NCBI GenBank assembly: GCA_029239235.1
Contig: JAQZBD010000001.1
Location: 1 to 64,000 of the forward strand
Length of the DNA: 64,000 bases
Source: Herbinix sp.
GTDB taxonomy: Bacteria; Bacillota; Clostridia; Lachnospirales; Lachnospiraceae
Direction of reading: 5' to 3'
Within the stretch, counting starts at the first letter, position 1, and each line of letters begins with the position of its first letter. Positions 23,896 to 61,066 of the stretch are shown here, one piece after another. The notes beneath the pieces were generated by a model. That model saw only the letters and a list, made by a program, of their open reading frames with translations, ran no database searches and was not told where the DNA came from. The translations under genes were made by a program, and so were the position numbers.

Positions 23896-24444
23896 TTATA
23901 AAATATATTTACATAATTTATCATCCGGATTTGCAATTACTGTTGAATCCAGCAGCATGGCATGTTCACCAACCGCTTTTTTCGCTTTTTCTATGGCCGC
24001 TTCCACTGCCGCGATCTCACCAGTTAAGAACATGTAGGACTTCCCGCACATTCCTCTTGCCATTCTTAGTTCAATCAACTCAACCTCAGAGGTCTTAGCT
24101 GCTTCATCAGCCGCAACAATAATGGAAGGGGTTGAAAAGGTTTCAAGGATTCCAAGTGCATTAATCTTCTCTACTTTAGAGGTACCATAGAGCGCAGGAA
24201 AAATGCCCTCATGAGGATTACCAAGAATAAAGCTATCAATCAGATGTTGCCCACAGGTACTGCGTGCAGCCTCTACACTTGCATTTACCGCGCTTAAATC
24301 ACCGCAGAAAATAGCTATGTACTTTCCCGGACAGACGGTCTGTGCTTCGATAATATCAATCTCGGCTGTTTTCACCATCACATCAGCTGCATGAATTCCG
24401 GCAGATACAGTTTTATATTCAACCATTCCGATTGCTTTACTCAT
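23896..24444 (-). CDS. PduT-like tandem BMC (BMC-T) shell protein with Fe-S pore cysteine
   Basis: Two BMC domains in tandem (182 residues) form a trimeric pseudo-hexamer. Cys38, in AQTVCPGKY, falls at the position that holds the [4Fe-4S] cluster at the pore of PduT. Closest resemblance is PduT (SKAIGMVEYKTV start, second repeat from KINALGILETFS). Together with the PduS-like flavoprotein next door it could pass electrons across the shell. The ribosome site AGAGGA is weakly spaced. Confidence 0.88.
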   Translation of the reverse strand: MSKAIGMVEYKTVSAGIHAADVMVKTAEIDIIEAQTVCPGKYIAIFCGDLSAVNASVEAARSTCGQHLIDSFILGNPHEGIFPALYGTSKVEKINALGILETFSTPSIIVAADEAAKTSEVELIELRMARGMCGKSYMFLTGEIAAVEAAIEKAKKAVGEHAMLLDSTVIANPDDKLCKYIL

Positions 24445-27216: not shown

Positions 27217-27771
27217 TTACTTTAAAGCTGGAAGAATCTTTTCAACATCGGTATGAGGTCTTGGGATTACGTGTGTAGCTACTAATTCGCCAAGCTTGGA
27301 TGCGGAGTTTGCACCTGATTCAACAGCTGCTTTAACTGCACCTACATCTCCTCTAACCATAACAGATACAAGTCCAGAACCGATTTTCTCTGTTCCTACT
27401 AAAGTTACGTTTGCAGCCTTTAACATAGCATCTGCTGCTTCAATTGCTGCTACTAAACCTCTTGTTTCAACCATTCCTAATGCTTCCTGAGCCATTTTCT
27501 TTTCCTCCTTGATAGCGTTCGCTATTTCGTTGTTAATAGTTTTGTTTGTAGTGTTTACTGCTTCATTACTTGCATCGTCCGTACTGTCTTTTGCGTCAAG
27601 TACTTCTTCTGTAACTTTCTTTGTTGCTGCTTTGGTTTTGGTTTTTACTTCATTACTTTCATTGGTTTTTACTTCATTATTAACTTCAACTTCTTGTACT
27701 GCTTCTTTTGTAACTTCATTTGCTGGTGTTTTTGAATTACTTTTGGCACCGCGCTTTTTTGAATCTGCCAT
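27217..27771 (-). CDS. BMC-H shell protein with 92-residue charged N-terminal extension and internal start
   Basis: The 184-residue reading has a Lys/Glu/Thr/Asn-rich, low-complexity N-terminus (residues 1-92), including a NEVKTN repeat. A complete hexameric BMC domain follows from [13 protein letters not shown] to the end. The long ATG (27771) has GGAG 5 bp upstream. Inside the frame, AAGGAGG lies 8 bp before the ATG at 27495, so a 92-residue canonical PduA-like shell protein could also be made. That short form is nearly identical to the shell gene at 28350. The extension could face the lumen or cytosol, tether cargo, or be cleaved. Confidence 0.85.
27503..27509 (-). promoter_or_regulatory. 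Internal in-frame Shine-Dalgarno (AAGGAGG) for short BMC-H form
   Basis: AAGGAGG followed by 8 nt and an ATG lies within the reading frame, where it encodes Lys-Glu-Glu. It matches the arrangement in front of the stand-alone paralogue at 28625. Confidence 0.75.
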
Positions 27772-27848
27772 ATTGTCTCCATTCCGCCGCTAACCTGGCG
27801 GCATAAATTACCATGACATTTATATCGTGCGATCAGATAATTGTGATT

Positions 27849-28157
27849 CTAGTCTTCCATCAAATCCACTGGTTCATTTCCATACATTCTGCTAGCACTA
27901 AGCTTTACCATTCGCATGGTTTCTTCATGTGGATTTGGAATTACTGCATGTACACAAGCTTTCATCGACTTACTTGCAGCAACTTCCACTGCTTCTTTTA
28001 CAGCCGATACATCTCCTTGTATAATGATGGTAACAAGACGTCCGCCTAACTTTCTTTCCCAGGTAACGAATTCCACATCTGCTGTCTTGCACATGATGTC
28101 AAGAGCATCTACTGCGGCTGTTACACTTGGGATCTCAATAAATCCTAATGATTTCAT
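27849..28157 (-). CDS. BMC-H shell protein, divergent
   Basis: The 102-residue protein has a single BMC domain (MKSLGFIEIPSVTAAVDALDI, then GGRLVTIIIQGDVSAVKEAV and HAVIPNPHEE) with a ~15-residue C-terminal tail ending in PVDLMED. It differs clearly from the PduA-like pair around it, so it probably forms a hexamer with a different pore. The pore-loop region around KLGGRL may set permeability. AAAGG site, ATG start. Confidence 0.9.
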   Translation of the reverse strand: MKSLGFIEIPSVTAAVDALDIMCKTADVEFVTWERKLGGRLVTIIIQGDVSAVKEAVEVAASKSMKACVHAVIPNPHEETMRMVKLSASRMYGNEPVDLMED

Positions 28158-28273
28158 CTGTAACCCATACCTTTCGATTTATCTACCTTAACAGGTCTTC
28201 CGGAATTGTTTTATACAAGCGAATTACATATCCTCCAACTTGTTAACTGGGTTCTTTTGAAACTTACACCCGT

Positions 28274-28350
28274 GCCTTTCACTTTTTGATGATATATTCA
28301 AAAAGTGAACAGGCCTTAATAAATAGTTTGAAAATGCGTTTTTTCAAACT
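28274..28350 (-). other. Two intercistronic stem-loops between shell genes
   Basis: GCCT-CACTTTTTGA pairs with TCAAAAAGTG-AGGC (28274-28314). AGTTTGAAA pairs with TTTCAAACT (28325-28350), ending at the stop codon of the upstream shell gene. They could protect or process the mRNA of the most abundant shell protein. Confidence 0.65.
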
Positions 28351-28625
28351 TAGAACTTCGGAAGAATTTTCTCAACATCGGTATGAGGTCTAGGAATAAC
28401 ATGTGTTGCAACTAACTCACCTAATCTGGAAGCTGCTGATGCTCCTACCTCAGTAGCTGCTTTAACTGCACCTACATCACCGCGAACCAATACTGTTACA
28501 AGTCCTGATCCGATTTTCTCTGTTCCTACCAAAGTTACTTCTGCTGCTTTAACCATTGCATCAGCTGCTTCAATCGCTGCTGTAAGACCTCTAGTTTCAA
28601 CCATTCCTAATGCTTCTTGAGCCAT
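28350..28625 (-). CDS. BMC-H shell protein (PduA-like, major)
   Basis: The 91-residue protein is a canonical hexameric shell protein: [22 protein letters not shown], the pore loop [21 protein letters not shown] and the [14 protein letters not shown] end. It is nearly identical to the C-terminal half of the extended gene at 27217, so the two arose by duplication. AGGAGG sits 9 bp before the ATG, and an unusual array of three hairpins precedes it. Confidence 0.95.
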
Positions 28626-28631
28626 TTTACT

Positions 28632-28730
28632 AATCCTCCTGATTTGGGTGGAGGATTTCTCCTCCTGATTTTAGGTGGAGAGTTTCTCCGCCTGAGATTG
28701 TTTGGTATCAGGAGTATTTAGCCTCCTGAC
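28632..28730 (-). promoter_or_regulatory. Array of three SD-bearing hairpins in the leader of the major shell gene
   Basis: Reading the minus strand, TCAGGAG-N8-CTCCTGA, then GGCGGAG paired with CTCTCCACC, then GGAGGA-GAAA-TCCTCC follow one another at ~35-nt spacing. Each hides a GGAG-type motif in its 5' arm. The real, unpaired AGGAGG comes directly after the last one. Confidence 0.7.
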
Positions 28731-28771
28731 TGTGCTACCTTATCTAGTATTTATCCATTATAATATATTTC

Positions 28772-29089
28772 TTAGTTTTTATCCAGTCCACTAAGTGCAA
28801 GCATTTTCTCAACTGCCGGATCCGGTGCTGCGATAACATGAGTTGTAATAACTCCGGATATTTGATTTGCTGCTTCCTGTGCTGCTTCCACTGCTGCTCT
28901 AACATCAACAACGCTTCCGCGGAATTTTACAGTAACAATGAGTGGAACCGGAAGACTGTCAGCATTTGCAGGCTTATTACGGTCAAAGGCCTCAACAGTT
29001 ACGTTAGCTGCTTTGCATCCGGCATCGCATGCCATAAAAGCTGTAACAAGTCCGAAAACTTCAATTATGCCAACTGCATTTCCCATCAT
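28772..29089 (-). CDS. BMC-H shell protein with insertion
   Basis: The 105-residue single BMC domain starts GNAVGIIEVFGLVTAFMACDAGCKAANV and ends THVIAAPDPAVEKMLALSGLDKN. It carries a ~9-residue insertion (KPANADSLP) in the strand-turn before PLIVTVKFRGSV that other shell proteins here lack. Two Cys residues lie in the first helix. It is the first shell gene of the operon, directly after the alcohol dehydrogenase. ATGATG start with GGAG. Confidence 0.9.
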   Translation of the reverse strand: MMGNAVGIIEVFGLVTAFMACDAGCKAANVTVEAFDRNKPANADSLPVPLIVTVKFRGSVVDVRAAVEAAQEAANQISGVITTHVIAAPDPAVEKMLALSGLDKN

Positions 29090-32855: not shown

Positions 32856-33032
32856 CTTTCTCAATTAAACTATTTTATGGATGAATCAAGAATAAATCTT
32901 TATATTATTTGATCTATGGGATACCCCATAAACTCACTTCTTCTTATTATAACAATATGATTTGAGTAAGAAGAATCAATGCAATTATATAAGAATATGA
33001 TTAGAGCACAATTGCCTACATTAACCTAAAGC

Positions 33033-33172
33033 GGTGAAACTGGGTGCATCTATATCCATATGGGCGAAGACCGGGTCTCCCGTGATTGCCTGCACTTTGC
33101 AATCATGGGCATGTTTACAGAAGCAAGCTTCTGCGGCGAGCCCAGGTGGATATAGATGCACCCAGTTTCACC
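33033..33172. repeat. Palindromic element, copy 1 (26-bp perfect stem)
   Basis: GGTGAAACTGGGTGCATCTA... (26 nt) is perfectly complementary to 33147-33172. The interior holds GGGCGAAGACCGGG, an inner hairpin CCCGTGATTGC/GCAATCATGGG, and an extra small hairpin AGAAGC/GCTTCT that is absent from the other copies. Homology with copy 3 continues on the right to ~33211. Confidence 0.9.
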
Positions 33173-33232
33173 TCACAGCCTAAATCTAACACATTTAACA
33201 CTCAAATCATATTAATATAGTACAAAGTCTTT

Positions 33233-36688: not shown

Positions 36689-36734
36689 AAAGATGTAATT
36701 ATATTAGGAATAAGTGGTTAAGCTCACGTATCCT

Positions 36735-36930
36735 CATTTTTATTCGATGCGTCGCAGTTTAACATAATAGGGAAACAGGTTAAAAACCTGTACGGTCTCG
36801 CCGCTGTATTTGGGGAGCTCATTGAGGCAAGAATTATCTTGTTAAAATCACTGGATATTATTTTGAATGAAAGAATAATACCGGGAAGATGCGAAATGAG
36901 TGATGATCCAAGAGTCAGAAAACCTGCTTA
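36735..36930 (+). ncRNA. Cobalamin riboswitch
   Basis: Conserved aptamer pieces occur in order: GGGAAACAGGTTAAAAACCTG, CGGTCTCGCCGCTGTA (B12-box region), then CCGGGAAGATGCGAAATGAG, GATGATCCAAGAGTCAGAAAACCTGC. The order and spacing fit the AdoCbl-type aptamer. An intrinsic terminator follows before the uptake genes. Confidence 0.9.
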
Positions 36931-37010: not shown

Positions 37011-37048
37011 TCCTTTTCCTCATTAATACGTGGGTAAAGGATTTTTTT
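37011..37048 (+). terminator. Attenuator terminator of the cobalamin riboswitch
   Basis: TCCTTT pairs with AAAGGA, followed by seven T. It lies between the aptamer and the first gene, so ligand binding probably favours this hairpin. The stem is short. Confidence 0.6.
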
Positions 37049-37083
37049 ATTGTATTTTTATTGCATTTATAAAGGAGGACACT

Positions 37084-37485
37084 ATGAAAAACAACAAATA
37101 TTTCAAACCGATACTTGCGGTTGTTGTATTAGCACTATTGATACTGATTATGGCCTTAGTCTATAACCAATTCAAACCTGAGACTTCAAAAGGTTCCAAA
37201 GAGGTTGTTGTAGAGGTTGTTATACCTGAGGAAGAAACAAAAGAATTTACGTTACATACAGACGCGGAATACTTAAGTCAGGCACTGGAGGAAGAGCAAT
37301 TAGTAAAAGGCTCCGCCGGTGAATATGGTTTATTCATTACAGAAGTGAATGGACGTGTTGCTGATGACTCAAAACAGGAATGGTGGTGCATCACAAAGAA
37401 CGGCGAAGATGTATTTACCGGTGTTGATGCCACTCCTATAGCAAATGGGGAACATTATGAAATCACTCTTACTATCGGCTACTAA
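37084..37485 (+). CDS. DUF4430 (transcobalamin-like) surface protein
   Basis: AAAGGAGG precedes the ATG at 37084 (133 residues); the track start lies in the riboswitch terminator and is not used. An N-terminal membrane anchor or signal (ILAVVVLALLILIMALVY) is followed by a charged linker and a ~70-residue DUF4430 domain (LSQALEEEQLVKGS to the end, with EWWCITKNGEDV). This domain is related to the cobalamin-binding C-domain of transcobalamin and intrinsic factor. Placement under a B12 riboswitch supports capture of cobalamin or a precursor at the surface. Confidence 0.85.
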   Translation: MKNNKYFKPILAVVVLALLILIMALVYNQFKPETSKGSKEVVVEVVIPEEETKEFTLHTDAEYLSQALEEEQLVKGSAGEYGLFITEVNGRVADDSKQEWWCITKNGEDVFTGVDATPIANGEHYEITLTIGY

Positions 37486-37519
37486 AAAAGAAAAGGAATT
37501 TTCAGCAGGGGGTTCTCAG

Positions 37520-38011
37520 ATGAAGGTTAAGGATATCGCTTTGATTGGTATGATGAGCGCAATTATGCTTGCTGCTCAAGTCGGTTTAAGCTTTCTTCCT
37601 AACATTGAACTGGTATCCTTGCTCATTATACTATATACCTTAATCTTTGGCTGGAGAGCACTTTATATTATCTATGTATTTGTGGCAGTAGAAGGTATTT
37701 TATATGGCTTTGGCTTATGGTGGTTTTCTTACCTGTACATCTGGTTCGTGTTATATGTAATCACCAAGGTATTTCATAAGATCCAATCCCCATTTTATTG
37801 GGCTATAATCTCAGGAATCTACGGTTTAAGCTTTGGTGCACTATACTCCATTGTAGTTGTAATTACAAGCGGAATGAATGGAGGTTTAGCTAGTTGGGTG
37901 CAAGGAATTCCCTTTGATATTGCTCATGGCATTGGTAATTTTGCTGTTACTCTTATTTTATTTAAACCTCTCTATTTTATTTTAAGCAAATTAAACCGTC
38001 AAATAACATAA
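37520..38011 (+). CDS. ECF transporter S component (probable cobalamin)
   Basis: AGGGGG lies 9 bp before the ATG at 37520 (163 residues). The protein is almost entirely membrane-embedded, about six segments, with the N-terminal KVKDIALIGMMSAIMLAAQV typical of S components. The S unit binds vitamin and docks on shared EcfA/A'/T modules, which are not in the window. The riboswitch and the DUF4430 neighbour 34 bp upstream make cobalamin the likely substrate. Confidence 0.85.
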   Translation: MKVKDIALIGMMSAIMLAAQVGLSFLPNIELVSLLIILYTLIFGWRALYIIYVFVAVEGILYGFGLWWFSYLYIWFVLYVITKVFHKIQSPFYWAIISGIYGLSFGALYSIVVVITSGMNGGLASWVQGIPFDIAHGIGNFAVTLILFKPLYFILSKLNRQIT

Positions 38012-42544: not shown

Positions 42545-44062
42545 TTAATTCCATAAATCATTTCGAGCAATAAAATCCTGCTTTCTAGCTATCATTTCAT
42601 CAATGCGGTTGATGTAATCTGTTACACTTTTTACATTGTCCACCCGTTCCAGCCGATTCTCCTTATGGAAAACAAATTTAGACATCCCTCCTGCTCCAAG
42701 GGCTAGGATTGTCTGCTTTTCCTCCATAATTAATATATTATAAAGCCCTTCTTTACCGAATCTGGAATAGCCGATATTCTCAAGATTATCAGCCATATTC
42801 TTTTGCCGGTAAAGATAATAGGGTAGATAGCTGTTATCTTCTGCAAAATCCATTACATGCTCTAGCATCTTCGGCACTTCTGAGGCTTTCAGCTCCATGT
42901 AATTATCCTTCTCAAGATTCAATCTCGCCGCACGTTTAATCGCTAACGTATGAACTGTGAGACTTTCCGGATTCATTTCTTTAATCTGTCTTAAAGTATC
43001 CTCCACATCCTCCGGAGCTTCTCCCGGTAAGCCGATGATAATATCCATATTAATATTATGATGTCCGGTTTCACGTGCTATACGAAAAGCTTCTTTAATA
43101 TCTTCTATGGTATGACATCTTCCAATCAAATCCAAGGTTCTTTGCTGCATGCTTTGCGGATTAATACTAATTCGATCCACTCCCCATTTTTTTAATACCA
43201 AAAGCTTCTCAGGGGTAATGCTGTCAGGTCGTCCCGCTTCCACACAGAACTCTTTTACATGTGAAAAATCAAAATGCTCCTTCACTTTGCCAATGATTCG
43301 ATCCAGCTGCTCTGCACTTAGTGTTGTGGGTGTTCCACCACCAAAGTAAATGCAAGCCAGCTTCTTATCCGGGAAGCAGGTGGAAGCATATACCAGTTCC
43401 TTCTCTAACGCCTCCAGATAATCCTCTACTAAATTAGAAAAACGTGCTATAGAATATGAGGTAAAGGAACAATATAAACAGGTGGTCGGACAGAAGGGAA
43501 TACCAATGTAAAGGCTATAGCCCTTTTGATAATCCATCTCCTGAAGGAGTACCAGCTCCCTTTTTGCAATCTGTATGCTCATATCTACCTTTTCCCTGGA
43601 ACAAAGATATTCTTTATCCATATGAGCCCTAATGTCTTCCTCCGAAACCTCCTGCTCCAGCATCTCATAAACCAGCTTTGTTGGTCGAATCCCCGTAAGA
43701 ATCCCCCAAGGAAGCTCTCGTTCTACAAGCCGCGATAGTACTTGGTACAGACCACGCTTGATCGTATTCTTATACCCTGCCTTCGTCAACGAATTAAGGG
43801 AGCCGATTATTTTCGTCTCCTGCCAATCCAATTGATTCCCAACCCGCAGAAGGACATACTCTTCAAATAACTCAATCTCAACGGTAAGTCCTTTATCAAC
43901 TTGAACTCCAACATTCTCTTGCTGAGGAAGCAGATCTTCCTGCTGTTGTCCGATAAACTCCTCCGAAGAAAATACCTTGATAGTCTCCTCAGGATAAAAA
44001 GCTTTCACCAGTGGATAAAAATCGTTCTCGTAAGCCTTATCGGATAAAATAATATTAATCAT
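42545..44062 (-). CDS. hemZ: HemZ-like radical SAM coproporphyrinogen-dehydrogenase family protein
   Basis: The 505-residue protein has an ~160-residue N-terminal domain typical of HemZ, then a HemN-type radical SAM core: YIGIPFCPTTCLYCSFTSY, FGGGTPTTLS and NMDIIIGLPGE. The family name comes from Bacillus subtilis HemZ. Many HemN-like proteins have other roles, so heme synthesis is not assured. Palindromic element copy 2 lies between it and the upstream MBL gene. Confidence 0.85.
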   Translation of the reverse strand: MINIILSDKAYENDFYPLVKAFYPEETIKVFSSEEFIGQQQEDLLPQQENVGVQVDKGLTVEIELFEEYVLLRVGNQLDWQETKIIGSLNSLTKAGYKNTIKRGLYQVLSRLVERELPWGILTGIRPTKLVYEMLEQEVSEEDIRAHMDKEYLCSREKVDMSIQIAKRELVLLQEMDYQKGYSLYIGIPFCPTTCLYCSFTSYSIARFSNLVEDYLEALEKELVYASTCFPDKKLACIYFGGGTPTTLSAEQLDRIIGKVKEHFDFSHVKEFCVEAGRPDSITPEKLLVLKKWGVDRISINPQSMQQRTLDLIGRCHTIEDIKEAFRIARETGHHNINMDIIIGLPGEAPEDVEDTLRQIKEMNPESLTVHTLAIKRAARLNLEKDNYMELKASEVPKMLEHVMDFAEDNSYLPYYLYRQKNMADNLENIGYSRFGKEGLYNILIMEEKQTILALGAGGMSKFVFHKENRLERVDNVKSVTDYINRIDEMIARKQDFIARNDLWN

Positions 44063-44126
44063 ATCAATCTCACTTCCTACAAACTATATAAGATTCATAT
44101 GTCAAGAATCTCAATAATACTACAGC

Positions 44127-44246
44127 GATGAATCAGTGTGTATATGTATTCAGATGGCGCAGACCGGCATCTTGTGATTGCCTGCATTTGGCAAGCACAG
44201 GATGGTAAGGCAAGTCCAGATGAATGCATATACACACTGATTCATC
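44127..44246. repeat. Palindromic element, copy 2 (26-bp stem with one G-T pair)
   Basis: The 26-nt left arm (44127-44152, GATGAATCAGTGTG...) pairs with 44221-44246 with one T-G wobble. Arm sequence differs from copies 1 and 3 at many positions on both sides, yet pairing is kept. Interior CAGACCGG and GTGATTGCCTGCA are shared, and the inner hairpin changes to TGTG/CACA plus TTGCC/GGCAA. Confidence 0.9.
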
Positions 44247-44287
44247 TCACTACATAAACCTAAGTTAAACATGAATCCTATAACCCA

Positions 44288-44962
44288 CTAATCGAAAAGG
44301 CTTGAACTTCTATTGATATATATATTATTATCCCGCTCATGTCCTATCGTAGTTGGATCACCATGACCCGGATATACAATAACCTGATCTTCCAGTAACA
44401 TTAGTTTACTATTGATTGAGTTCACCAATACTTTTCCATTTCCGGTGGGCAGATCATATCTGCCGATATCCTCAAGAAAAAGTGTATCTCCGCTGAACAA
44501 AACACCATGACCGACAAAATAATAGCAGGCACCGCCAATTGTGTGCCCCGGTGTATGAATTACTTTAATAGTAAAGCCAGCCATGTGTAAAACTTCCTGA
44601 TCTTTTAATAGGACATCAGGTCTCAAGCTGCATTCTTTACGAAATTGGATTGAGGCATTCATTCCCGGATCCTCTAACAGTTTCGCTTCCTCTTCATGTG
44701 CATGAATCTGAGCTTTTGTCGCGGCTGCCAAATCAGCCGCCGCCATAATATGGTCAAAATGACCATGCGTGAGAAGGATACCCTTGCACACGAGGTCATT
44801 TGCCTTTAAATATTGTTCAATTTTATCCGCGCGATCCGCCGGATCAACTACAATAGCTTCCTTTGTATCTTCATTGCTGACAATATAGCAATTTGTTTGA
44901 ACCATGCCAAGTACTAATGCTTTAACTTTAATGTTACTCACTCCTATCTCCATCTCATTCAT
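44288..44962 (-). CDS. MBL-fold hydrolase, glyoxalase-II-like
   Basis: The ~220-residue protein has the binuclear metal motif LTHGHFDHI, the HTPGHTIGGACYY ligand, FSGDTLF and a final PGHGDPTTIGHE. It resembles the YqgX/GloB-type hydrolases that often follow rel in Lachnospiraceae and Clostridia. The substrate is unknown. The start may be the ATG at 44962 or a GTG seven codons later that has GGAG at good distance. Confidence 0.85.
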   Translation of the reverse strand: MNEMEIGVSNIKVKALVLGMVQTNCYIVSNEDTKEAIVVDPADRADKIEQYLKANDLVCKGILLTHGHFDHIMAAADLAAATKAQIHAHEEEAKLLEDPGMNASIQFRKECSLRPDVLLKDQEVLHMAGFTIKVIHTPGHTIGGACYYFVGHGVLFSGDTLFLEDIGRYDLPTGNGKVLVNSINSKLMLLEDQVIVYPGHGDPTTIGHERDNNIYINRSSSLFD

Positions 44963-51912: not shown

Positions 51913-52083
51913 TCTTCTACCTCCTTAACATCAATTAACTTCTTGTAATTATATCATAAGTATTTTCATAAGAAAAGAGTTTTTTGTAATAAAGACACAT
52001 TTCAACCAATTTAGGGATTTTTTTCAAAAGATGATTCAGGTGTTATAAGTCAAAGATCAAAATTATATTTTTAGAAAGGCATA

Positions 52084-53457: not shown

Positions 53458-53712
53458 TCATCTCACACCCTTTCTATTAACACTTTAAAATCCATCTCTC
53501 GCTTTTTAACAATGATATATTAATAAAGCCTACTTTTATTGTCTCACCATTTACTGAATTTATGTGAATTTTTCTTTCCTCATTTTTCAATTTTCGCTAT
53601 AAAATGACTTTAATTATGATATTAAGGCCAAAATCTTCTTTACTCAACCTCGCTGAATGTATACGCATTTATTATATGGTTTGCCCGACAAATGCCTTTC
53701 TAAGACTAGCGC

Positions 53713-53835
53713 AGTGAATATGGGTGCATATATATCCATATGGGCGAAGACCGGGCCTCCCGTGATTGCCTGCACTCGGCAATCATGGGATGTTAAAGGC
53801 GAGCCCAGGTGGATATATATGCACCCATATTCACT
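53713..53835. repeat. Palindromic element, copy 3 (26-bp perfect stem)
   Basis: AGTGAATATGGGTGCATATA... (26 nt) is perfectly complementary to 53810-53835. The interior is almost the same as copy 1 (GGGCGAAGACCGGG, CCCGTGATTGC/GCAATCATGGG, GGCGAGCCCAGG) without the extra hairpin. Homology with copy 1 runs on to the right as far as the stop codon of the ABC ATPase gene (53873). Confidence 0.92.
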
Positions 53836-53872
53836 TCACACCCTAAATCTCGTACATTTGACGCCAAAATCA

Positions 53873-54658
53873 TTATATAGTATATTCCAACTGCGGCTGG
53901 GAACTAGCCAAATGCAATTTTTCAAGAATAACACCGCGTATCGACAAAAACTCCGATCCTCCACGGTCACGAGGATGTGACAGTTTGATGTTCATTATTT
54001 CACTAATCTTACCTGGACGTGGTGTCATAATGACAATCCGGTCACTTAGATAAATCGCTTCATCCACATCGTGGGTCACAAGTATCATGGTTGCATCATT
54101 TTCTTTGCGAAGCTCCAATAGTTTATCCTGAATGTCTGCCCGGGTAAAGGAATCAAGCGCTCCCATCGGCTCATCGAGAAGCAGTGCCTTCGGCTTATTA
54201 ATCAGCGCACGTGCAATTGCTACTCGTTGTGCCATACCGCCGCTGATCTGATGGGGAAAGGCCTTCTCAAAGCCGTTTAATCCGATCAAATCAATATAGT
54301 GAACAACCTGACTTTTGTTTTGCCGGTAGACACGCCTTGCCTTCAAGCCTGTAGCAATATTTTGTTCCACTGTCAGCCAGGGGAATAATCCGCCTTGTTG
54401 AAAAACATACCCTCTTTGGGGATCTGGCTCCGTGATTTCCTGTCCGGCAAGTGTTAGTAGCCCGGTCTCCGGCAAATCAAGTCCGGCAATAAGACGCAGC
54501 AAGGTCGTTTTCCCGCATCCGGAGGAGCCGATGATTGACACAAATTCACCGCGTTTAACGGTAAGATTAATATCCTTTAGCGCTTCCACCGTATTGTCTT
54601 TATCATCTATATAGGTGCGGTTAACATTTTTGATTTCTATAATTGTATCATTCTCCAA
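53873..54658 (-). CDS. NitT/TauT-type ABC transporter ATP-binding protein
   Basis: The 261-residue ATPase has Walker [11 protein letters not shown]-loop [12 protein letters not shown], the signature [15 protein letters not shown], Walker [13 protein letters not shown] and the H-loop VTHDVDEA. The pattern is that of SsuB/TauB/NrtD proteins. A TTG start with GGTG upstream overlaps the permease stop by 11 bp, so translation is coupled. It energises import of the substrate caught by the lipoprotein encoded first in the operon. Confidence 0.93.
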
Positions 54659-60938: not shown

Positions 60939-60980
60939 GTTATACAATTCCTTTCTAATTACATTTATTGTTCTAACTAA

Positions 60981-61066
60981 TCATATTTGATTTAAGTATT
61001 CATCATATTTGATTTAGACATTATCATATTTGATTTAAACACTTATCATATTTAATTTTAATACTT
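60981..61066. repeat. ~22-nt tandem repeat upstream of pepF
   Basis: Four copies of ATCATATTTGATTTAAACACTT with small changes follow in series in the pepF upstream region. Confidence 0.8.

Follow-up and report, generated by a model that had tools for sequence, protein, structure and literature searches.

Between the genes of an MBL-fold hydrolase and hemZ in Herbinix sp. lies a long imperfect palindrome, the second of three copies first noticed in the 64,000-nucleotide stretch analysed here (the window; contig JAQZBD010000001.1, positions 1 to 64,000). The question raised by this locus is whether the palindrome acts as a structured RNA in the mRNA shared by the two genes, as the first-pass annotation had proposed from a single G-T pair, or whether it is something else. 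The explanation that we consider probable is a non-autonomous, MITE-like mobile family of the genus Herbinix, around 190 bp in length, in which the fold of the strand bearing the GACCGG motif is selected and whose copy at MBL-hemZ is a passenger.

Copy 2 and its family

The genes, the parts of copy 2, and the two other copies in the window are given below in order of position. For copy 2, plus denotes the strand bearing the GACCGG core, which is antisense to both MBL and hemZ.

32999 to 33208, plus: copy 1, subfamily A, with an additional small hairpin ACAGAAGCAAGCTTCTGC after P3 (family search, fold)
42545 to 44062, minus: hemZ, coproporphyrinogen dehydrogenase (TIGR03994, 609.7 bits, cut-off 321.4)
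44084 to 44091, unstranded: left flank CTATATAA, a possible imperfect target duplication with 44278-44283 (CTATAA), inexact in copy 2
44092 to 44277, plus: copy 2, entire element (GATTC...GAATC), subfamily B, 186 bp, ends placed from the terminal repeats
44092 to 44106, plus: left arm of outer helix P1, terminal inverted repeat GATTCATATGTCAAG (pairing; family pattern search)
44127 to 44152, plus: left arm of P2, covarying, partner 44221-44246 (pairing, covariation, fold)
44158 to 44168, plus: conserved core, 5' side of the internal loop, GCAGACCGGCA (invariant columns; retained in other species)
44171 to 44201, plus: inner hairpin P3, TTGTGATTGCC tgcattt GGCAAGCACAG (covariation, fold)
44202 to 44219, plus: conserved core, 3' side of the internal loop, GATGGTAAGGCAAGTCCA (invariant columns; retained in other species)
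44221 to 44246, plus: right arm of P2, partner 44127-44152 (pairing, covariation, fold)
44262 to 44277, plus: right arm of P1, terminal inverted repeat, partly decayed (pairing)
44288 to 44962, minus: MBL-fold hydrolase (PF00753), its stop 11 bp from the right end of copy 2
53678 to 53871, plus: copy 3, subfamily A, with an exact 7-bp duplication ATTATAT at 53671-53677 and 53872-53878

Copy 2 forms a nearly perfect hairpin of 126 nt whose plus strand folds at -70.5 kcal/mol (z -11.9; 0 of 200 shuffles as good), and its core matched the family model with an E-value of 3.5e-32, copy 2 itself having been included in model building. The 26-nt arms with a single T-G wobble that had been described before were recovered (44127-44152 and 44221-44246, with one difference after reverse-complementing one arm), as was the one mismatch left in the inner hairpin (TGTGATTGCC/GGCAAGCACA). 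The differences from copies 1 and 3 are paired changes in the stems, as had been reported, and the distances given from copy 2 to the MBL stop (44288) and the hemZ start (44062) were correct. The element is longer than had been described: it extends from 44092 to 44277, and its outer helix P1 had been overlooked.

Instead of three copies, the family comprises around 60 in the 4.97-Mb genome. Its consensus consists of the inner hairpin P3, an asymmetric internal loop, the long helix P2 (the arms noted earlier), and the outer helix P1, and the sequence of the internal loop is conserved on both sides (GCGCAGACCGGC and GGTAAGGCAAGTCC). There are two main subfamilies, A with window copies 1 and 3, and B with copy 2. 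The three window copies measure 186-210 bp and the family mostly 60-390 bp, including shorter derivatives of 63-116 bp with the same ends. In a sub-lineage formed by copy 1 (hairpin at 33108-33137) and around ten others, among them L013, L015, L016, L019, L021, L025, L026, L027, and L029, the extra hairpin ACAGAAGCAAGCTTCTGC takes the place of ATGTTAAA next to the conserved core. Some copies of the sister species G023 (e.g. L131, on its right side) have as many as four tandem units of the right-hand internal-loop segment TTTAGGCTGTGAGG.

Elsewhere in the window, several short paralogous genes at 27217-29089 and 23896-24444 (minus strand) form a putative bacterial microcompartment shell protein cluster, which includes a 269-nt direct repeat with 81% identity, and the intergenic stretch 60958-61058 contains direct repeats of ATCATATTTGATTT, a possible regulator binding array. 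The sole Rfam match in the window was a cobalamin riboswitch (RF00174, 65 bits) at 36711-36930 on the plus strand, upstream of the genes at 37030-38011. At both gathering and relaxed thresholds, Rfam returned nothing relevant to the element, the sub-threshold matches being chance hairpins.

The fold of the GACCGG strand is selected

The stems of the palindrome covary at nearly every position around the asymmetric internal loop (GACCGGC...GGTAAGGCA), with both-sided changes in 33 of the 46 predicted pairs among 40 copies of this genome. As an independent test, P2 and P3 were taken from this genome and counted in 55 copies from G023 (57 examined), which were aligned without structure and with the window copy added as reference. 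There, 98.3% of the cells paired and both-sided changes occurred in 25 of 37 pairs; the both-sided cells numbered 258, whereas shuffles gave 59 on average and slid controls 24-45, and the covariation score was 0.425 as against 0.04-0.08 with the partners slid by 1-3 columns. In more distant Herbinix species, the P2 and P3 sequences are quite different and still paired around the same internal-loop motif. The compensatory changes first read from the window copies were thus borne out by counting across further copies in this genome and G023, and a retained core with lost arm complementarity, which would have spoken against them, was seen only in occasional truncated copies such as L029 and not in the family. 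The terminal repeats (P1 arms) covary as well, and even between nearest copies compensated changes outnumber mismatches.

The isolated mispairs in the shared helices distinguish the two strands. On the GACCGG strand, 89 were G.T and 6 A.C in this genome, and 120 were G.T and 23 A.C in G023, counts that share ancestry, so that their p-values are nominal and too small. This strand was the better folder in all 58 copies of this genome and in 56 of 57 in G023 (114 of 115 in total), as well as in 9 of 10 in G004 and 9 of 11 in G010/G024, and species whose arm sequences are unrelated show the bias again. Mutation biases are expected to give more C-to-T changes on the sense or lagging-template strand, which would push in the opposite direction to the observed G.T bias. 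A cruciform exposes both strands, and a G.T in one arm pair is an A.C in the other, so that no bias would be expected from it. Consequently, the earlier use of the G-T pair to prefer RNA over a DNA cruciform stands, family-wide, as an argument against a plain cruciform, but it does not prove RNA, since folded single-stranded DNA tolerates G.T too. What is selected is the fold of one strand, the GACCGG strand, be it in RNA or in single-stranded DNA.

Variants common to several copies showed a strong bias (G.U to A.C, 191:25), those private to one copy a lesser one (42:23; p 4e-5, nominal). Because shared variants have been filtered and private ones less so, this suggests that selection on the fold acts mainly in the lineages that transmit the element. 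In the preferred explanation, the folded strand would be needed in spreading lineages, as RNA or single-stranded DNA, and the requirement would relax after insertion. However, a fold needed only for spreading predicts that private both-sided changes are rare, and the common compensated changes between nearest copies count against it.

Mobile-element features and distribution

The outer helix P1 is at the same time a terminal inverted repeat (GATTCRAGNGTCAAAAG). The pattern TGATTYRAGNGTCAWAAGYC, with at most two mismatches, matched 64 times in this genome and 0 times as a reversed control; with at most one mismatch it was found in 10 of the 34 genomes of the genus and was abundant in G010 and G024. 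Among 66 elements, 8 were flanked by exact 7-mers and 10 by exact 6-mers, where 0.1 and 0.35 were expected from mismatched flanks. Exact duplications of 6-7 bp thus accompany 18 of the 66 elements, compared with around 0.5 expected, and a second count gave 30% versus 4%. Only a few of 57 insertion sites were common to this genome and G023.

Copy numbers ranged from around 60 in this genome and at least 70 in the sister G023 to a few divergent copies in seven further species, and the other genomes searched had none. In a scan of 84,980 species, true matches were confined to Herbinix-related assemblies, the named ones beyond this genome being Herbinix assemblies. The covariance model rejected the matches in Komagataeibacter, Caulobacteraceae, Acetobacteraceae, Elusimicrobia, a Bacteroidales, and a Bacillota assembly.

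Judged by these sequence features, the element constitutes a new, MITE-like family within Herbinix: it is short and carries no transposase gene, has terminal inverted repeats and 6-7 bp target duplications, and occurs in at least 60 dispersed copies with empty orthologous sites. A literature search, limited to title and abstract level, found no account of this repeat in Herbinix. In the loci examined, no insertion sequence was found that shares the element's ends and could be its parent, and for some MITEs no parent is known. An incomplete search in fragmented assemblies revealed no transposase between matching terminal repeats in the loci examined, and the open reading frames close to terminal repeats that stood alone or far apart, considered as candidates for an autonomous partner, were ordinary genes (e.g. 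GAPDH, ribosomal protein S15, and a SPOUT methyltransferase). A solitary terminal-repeat-like sequence TGATTCAGGTGTTATAAGTC is located in the window at 52032-52051 (plus strand), upstream of a DegV gene; it has no obvious partner and is perhaps a decayed element. A DDE-type transposase supplied in trans may move the element via its terminal repeats. Covarying terminal repeats are not predicted by a transposase that reads sequence, and this counts against the explanation that we prefer.

The bacterial MITEs Correia/NEMIS, RUP, and ERIC/RU-1 (reviewed in PMC2229807) are similar in being shorter than 200 bp and non-coding, with terminal inverted repeats, target duplications, a stable hairpin, and many intergenic copies. 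The Herbinix element differs from them in its sequence and terminal repeats, in duplications of 6-7 bp and not TA, in stems that covary over their full length, and in the strand-specific selection of G.U antisense to the neighbour gene. It also resembles bcr1 of the Bacillus cereus group, a repeat of around 150-170 bp that is present in dozens of copies, is confined to one bacterial group, and combines mobile features with a conserved structure (PMC2267715, PMC6542083). A TTTAT motif and a mechanism like site-specific recombination have been connected with the mobility of bcr elements (PMC6542083), whereas the Herbinix element, compared here by description, has terminal repeats and 6-7 bp duplications.

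Placement at gene ends and competing explanations

In the two element-rich sister genomes, copies lie just 3' of a stop codon, with the GACCGG strand antisense to the gene. Read along this strand, the element mostly has on its right a gene that points towards it. The median distance between the stop of this gene and the end of the core (126 nt) is around 38 nt, compared with around 167 for left-hand stops, and the stop often lies at or within the right terminal repeat. Between tandem genes, 69 copies were in the antisense orientation and 9 in the opposite one (p 1.4e-12, this genome and G023 combined), and the right-hand stop was the nearer one in 14 of 17 convergent pairs; in other species the orientation bias was weak (11:6, 33 copies). 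For a MITE-like family, such placement could reflect target choice or the removal of copies placed otherwise. A different account, to which we give a minor share of belief, makes the folded GACCGG strand itself the mobility intermediate: a structured RNA or folded single-stranded DNA, recognised by its GACCGGC/GGTAAGGCA loop, would direct antisense insertion to gene 3' ends.

We regard it as unlikely that the element acts in cis within the mRNA of MBL-hemZ and similar loci, as a 3'-UTR or intercistronic element that stabilises the transcript, serves as an attenuator, or offers a site for RNase III. Copies do lie 10-50 nt past stop codons in a fixed orientation in two genomes, the mRNA strand of copy 2 still folds strongly (z -7.5), and ERIC effects, including that on mRNA stability, depend on orientation (PMC2229807, a review). 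However, MBL and hemZ are both on the minus strand, and their mRNA therefore carries the complement of the selected strand. The position read earlier as a T-G wobble is an A.C mismatch there, the selected G.U pairs being on the other strand, and the fold is weaker (-58.5 kcal/mol compared with -70.5 on the opposite strand). Thus, the RNA argument drawn from the G-T pair points away from the MBL-hemZ mRNA, for which the first-pass annotation had proposed it. There is no T-run beyond the far end of the hairpin on the mRNA strand, as an intrinsic terminator would have. Nor is the element conserved at the orthologous locus: none of the 29 other MBL loci scanned in the genus had it, and the MBL-hemZ gap was much shorter in the element-free loci whose sequence was read. 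A recent, lineage-specific insertion makes a conserved regulatory role at this site unlikely, and copy 2 would be a passenger between MBL and hemZ, not a regulator of either.

Small antisense RNA genes, with the GACCGG strand transcribed from a promoter in the left part of the element and acting on the adjacent 3' end or in trans, would directly explain the strand bias and the antisense placement, and the score of a TANACT box close to the left base of P2 is slightly higher than that of the corresponding box on the right. This account is doubtful as well. The weak -10-like box is the only promoter signal for the GACCGG strand, without a consistent -35 box, and Rfam gave no match. Furthermore, private changes were less filtered than shared ones, unlike what a functional RNA at each locus would show.

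Integron attC sites are imperfect palindromes that follow a stop codon, with a better-folding bottom strand, a variable tip, and conserved unpaired positions. The Herbinix element shares this appearance, lying 3' of a gene with its bottom strand folding best, and REP/BIME sequences are likewise repeated extragenic palindromes near gene 3' ends (PMC3733652). Nevertheless, a folded single-stranded DNA recombination site of the attC type or a REP/Y1-transposase element, with the antisense strand as the recombining hairpin, seems improbable to us, the attC likeness being one of similarity only. The target duplications point to a transposase making staggered cuts, the copies are single and dispersed and form no cassette arrays, and no integron integrase exceeded the cut-off (best TIGR02249 score 49 bits, cut-off 265). 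REP/BIME units are 20-40 bp long, tagged by GTAG or CGTC, and linked to Y1 transposases (PMC3733652), whereas this element has around 190 bp and does not track Y1 (IS200-type) transposases, which are absent from the carriers G004 and G015 and present in several element-free genomes.

Finally, a mutational origin of the paired changes by arm-to-arm copying (template switching or gene conversion), without selection on folding, would suit their frequency between nearest copies and the covarying terminal repeats, but is similarly improbable, because it does not predict the excess of G.T over A.C, the both-sided changes do not form tracts (17 adjacent, 16.5 expected), and the asymmetric internal loop survives uncorrected.

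Palindromic repeats are usually taken to be mRNA structures or DNA cruciforms. With more than 100 copies, the numbers of G.T and A.C mispairs could be used to ask which strand is selected, and it is the one absent from the neighbouring mRNA; the same count is applicable to other bacterial repeats. If the folded GACCGG strand is itself the mobility intermediate, the spread of this mobile element would depend on a strand-specific fold in addition to terminal repeats, and if the fold is needed for spreading, a strand-specific structure would be linked to transposition and to the targeting of gene ends.
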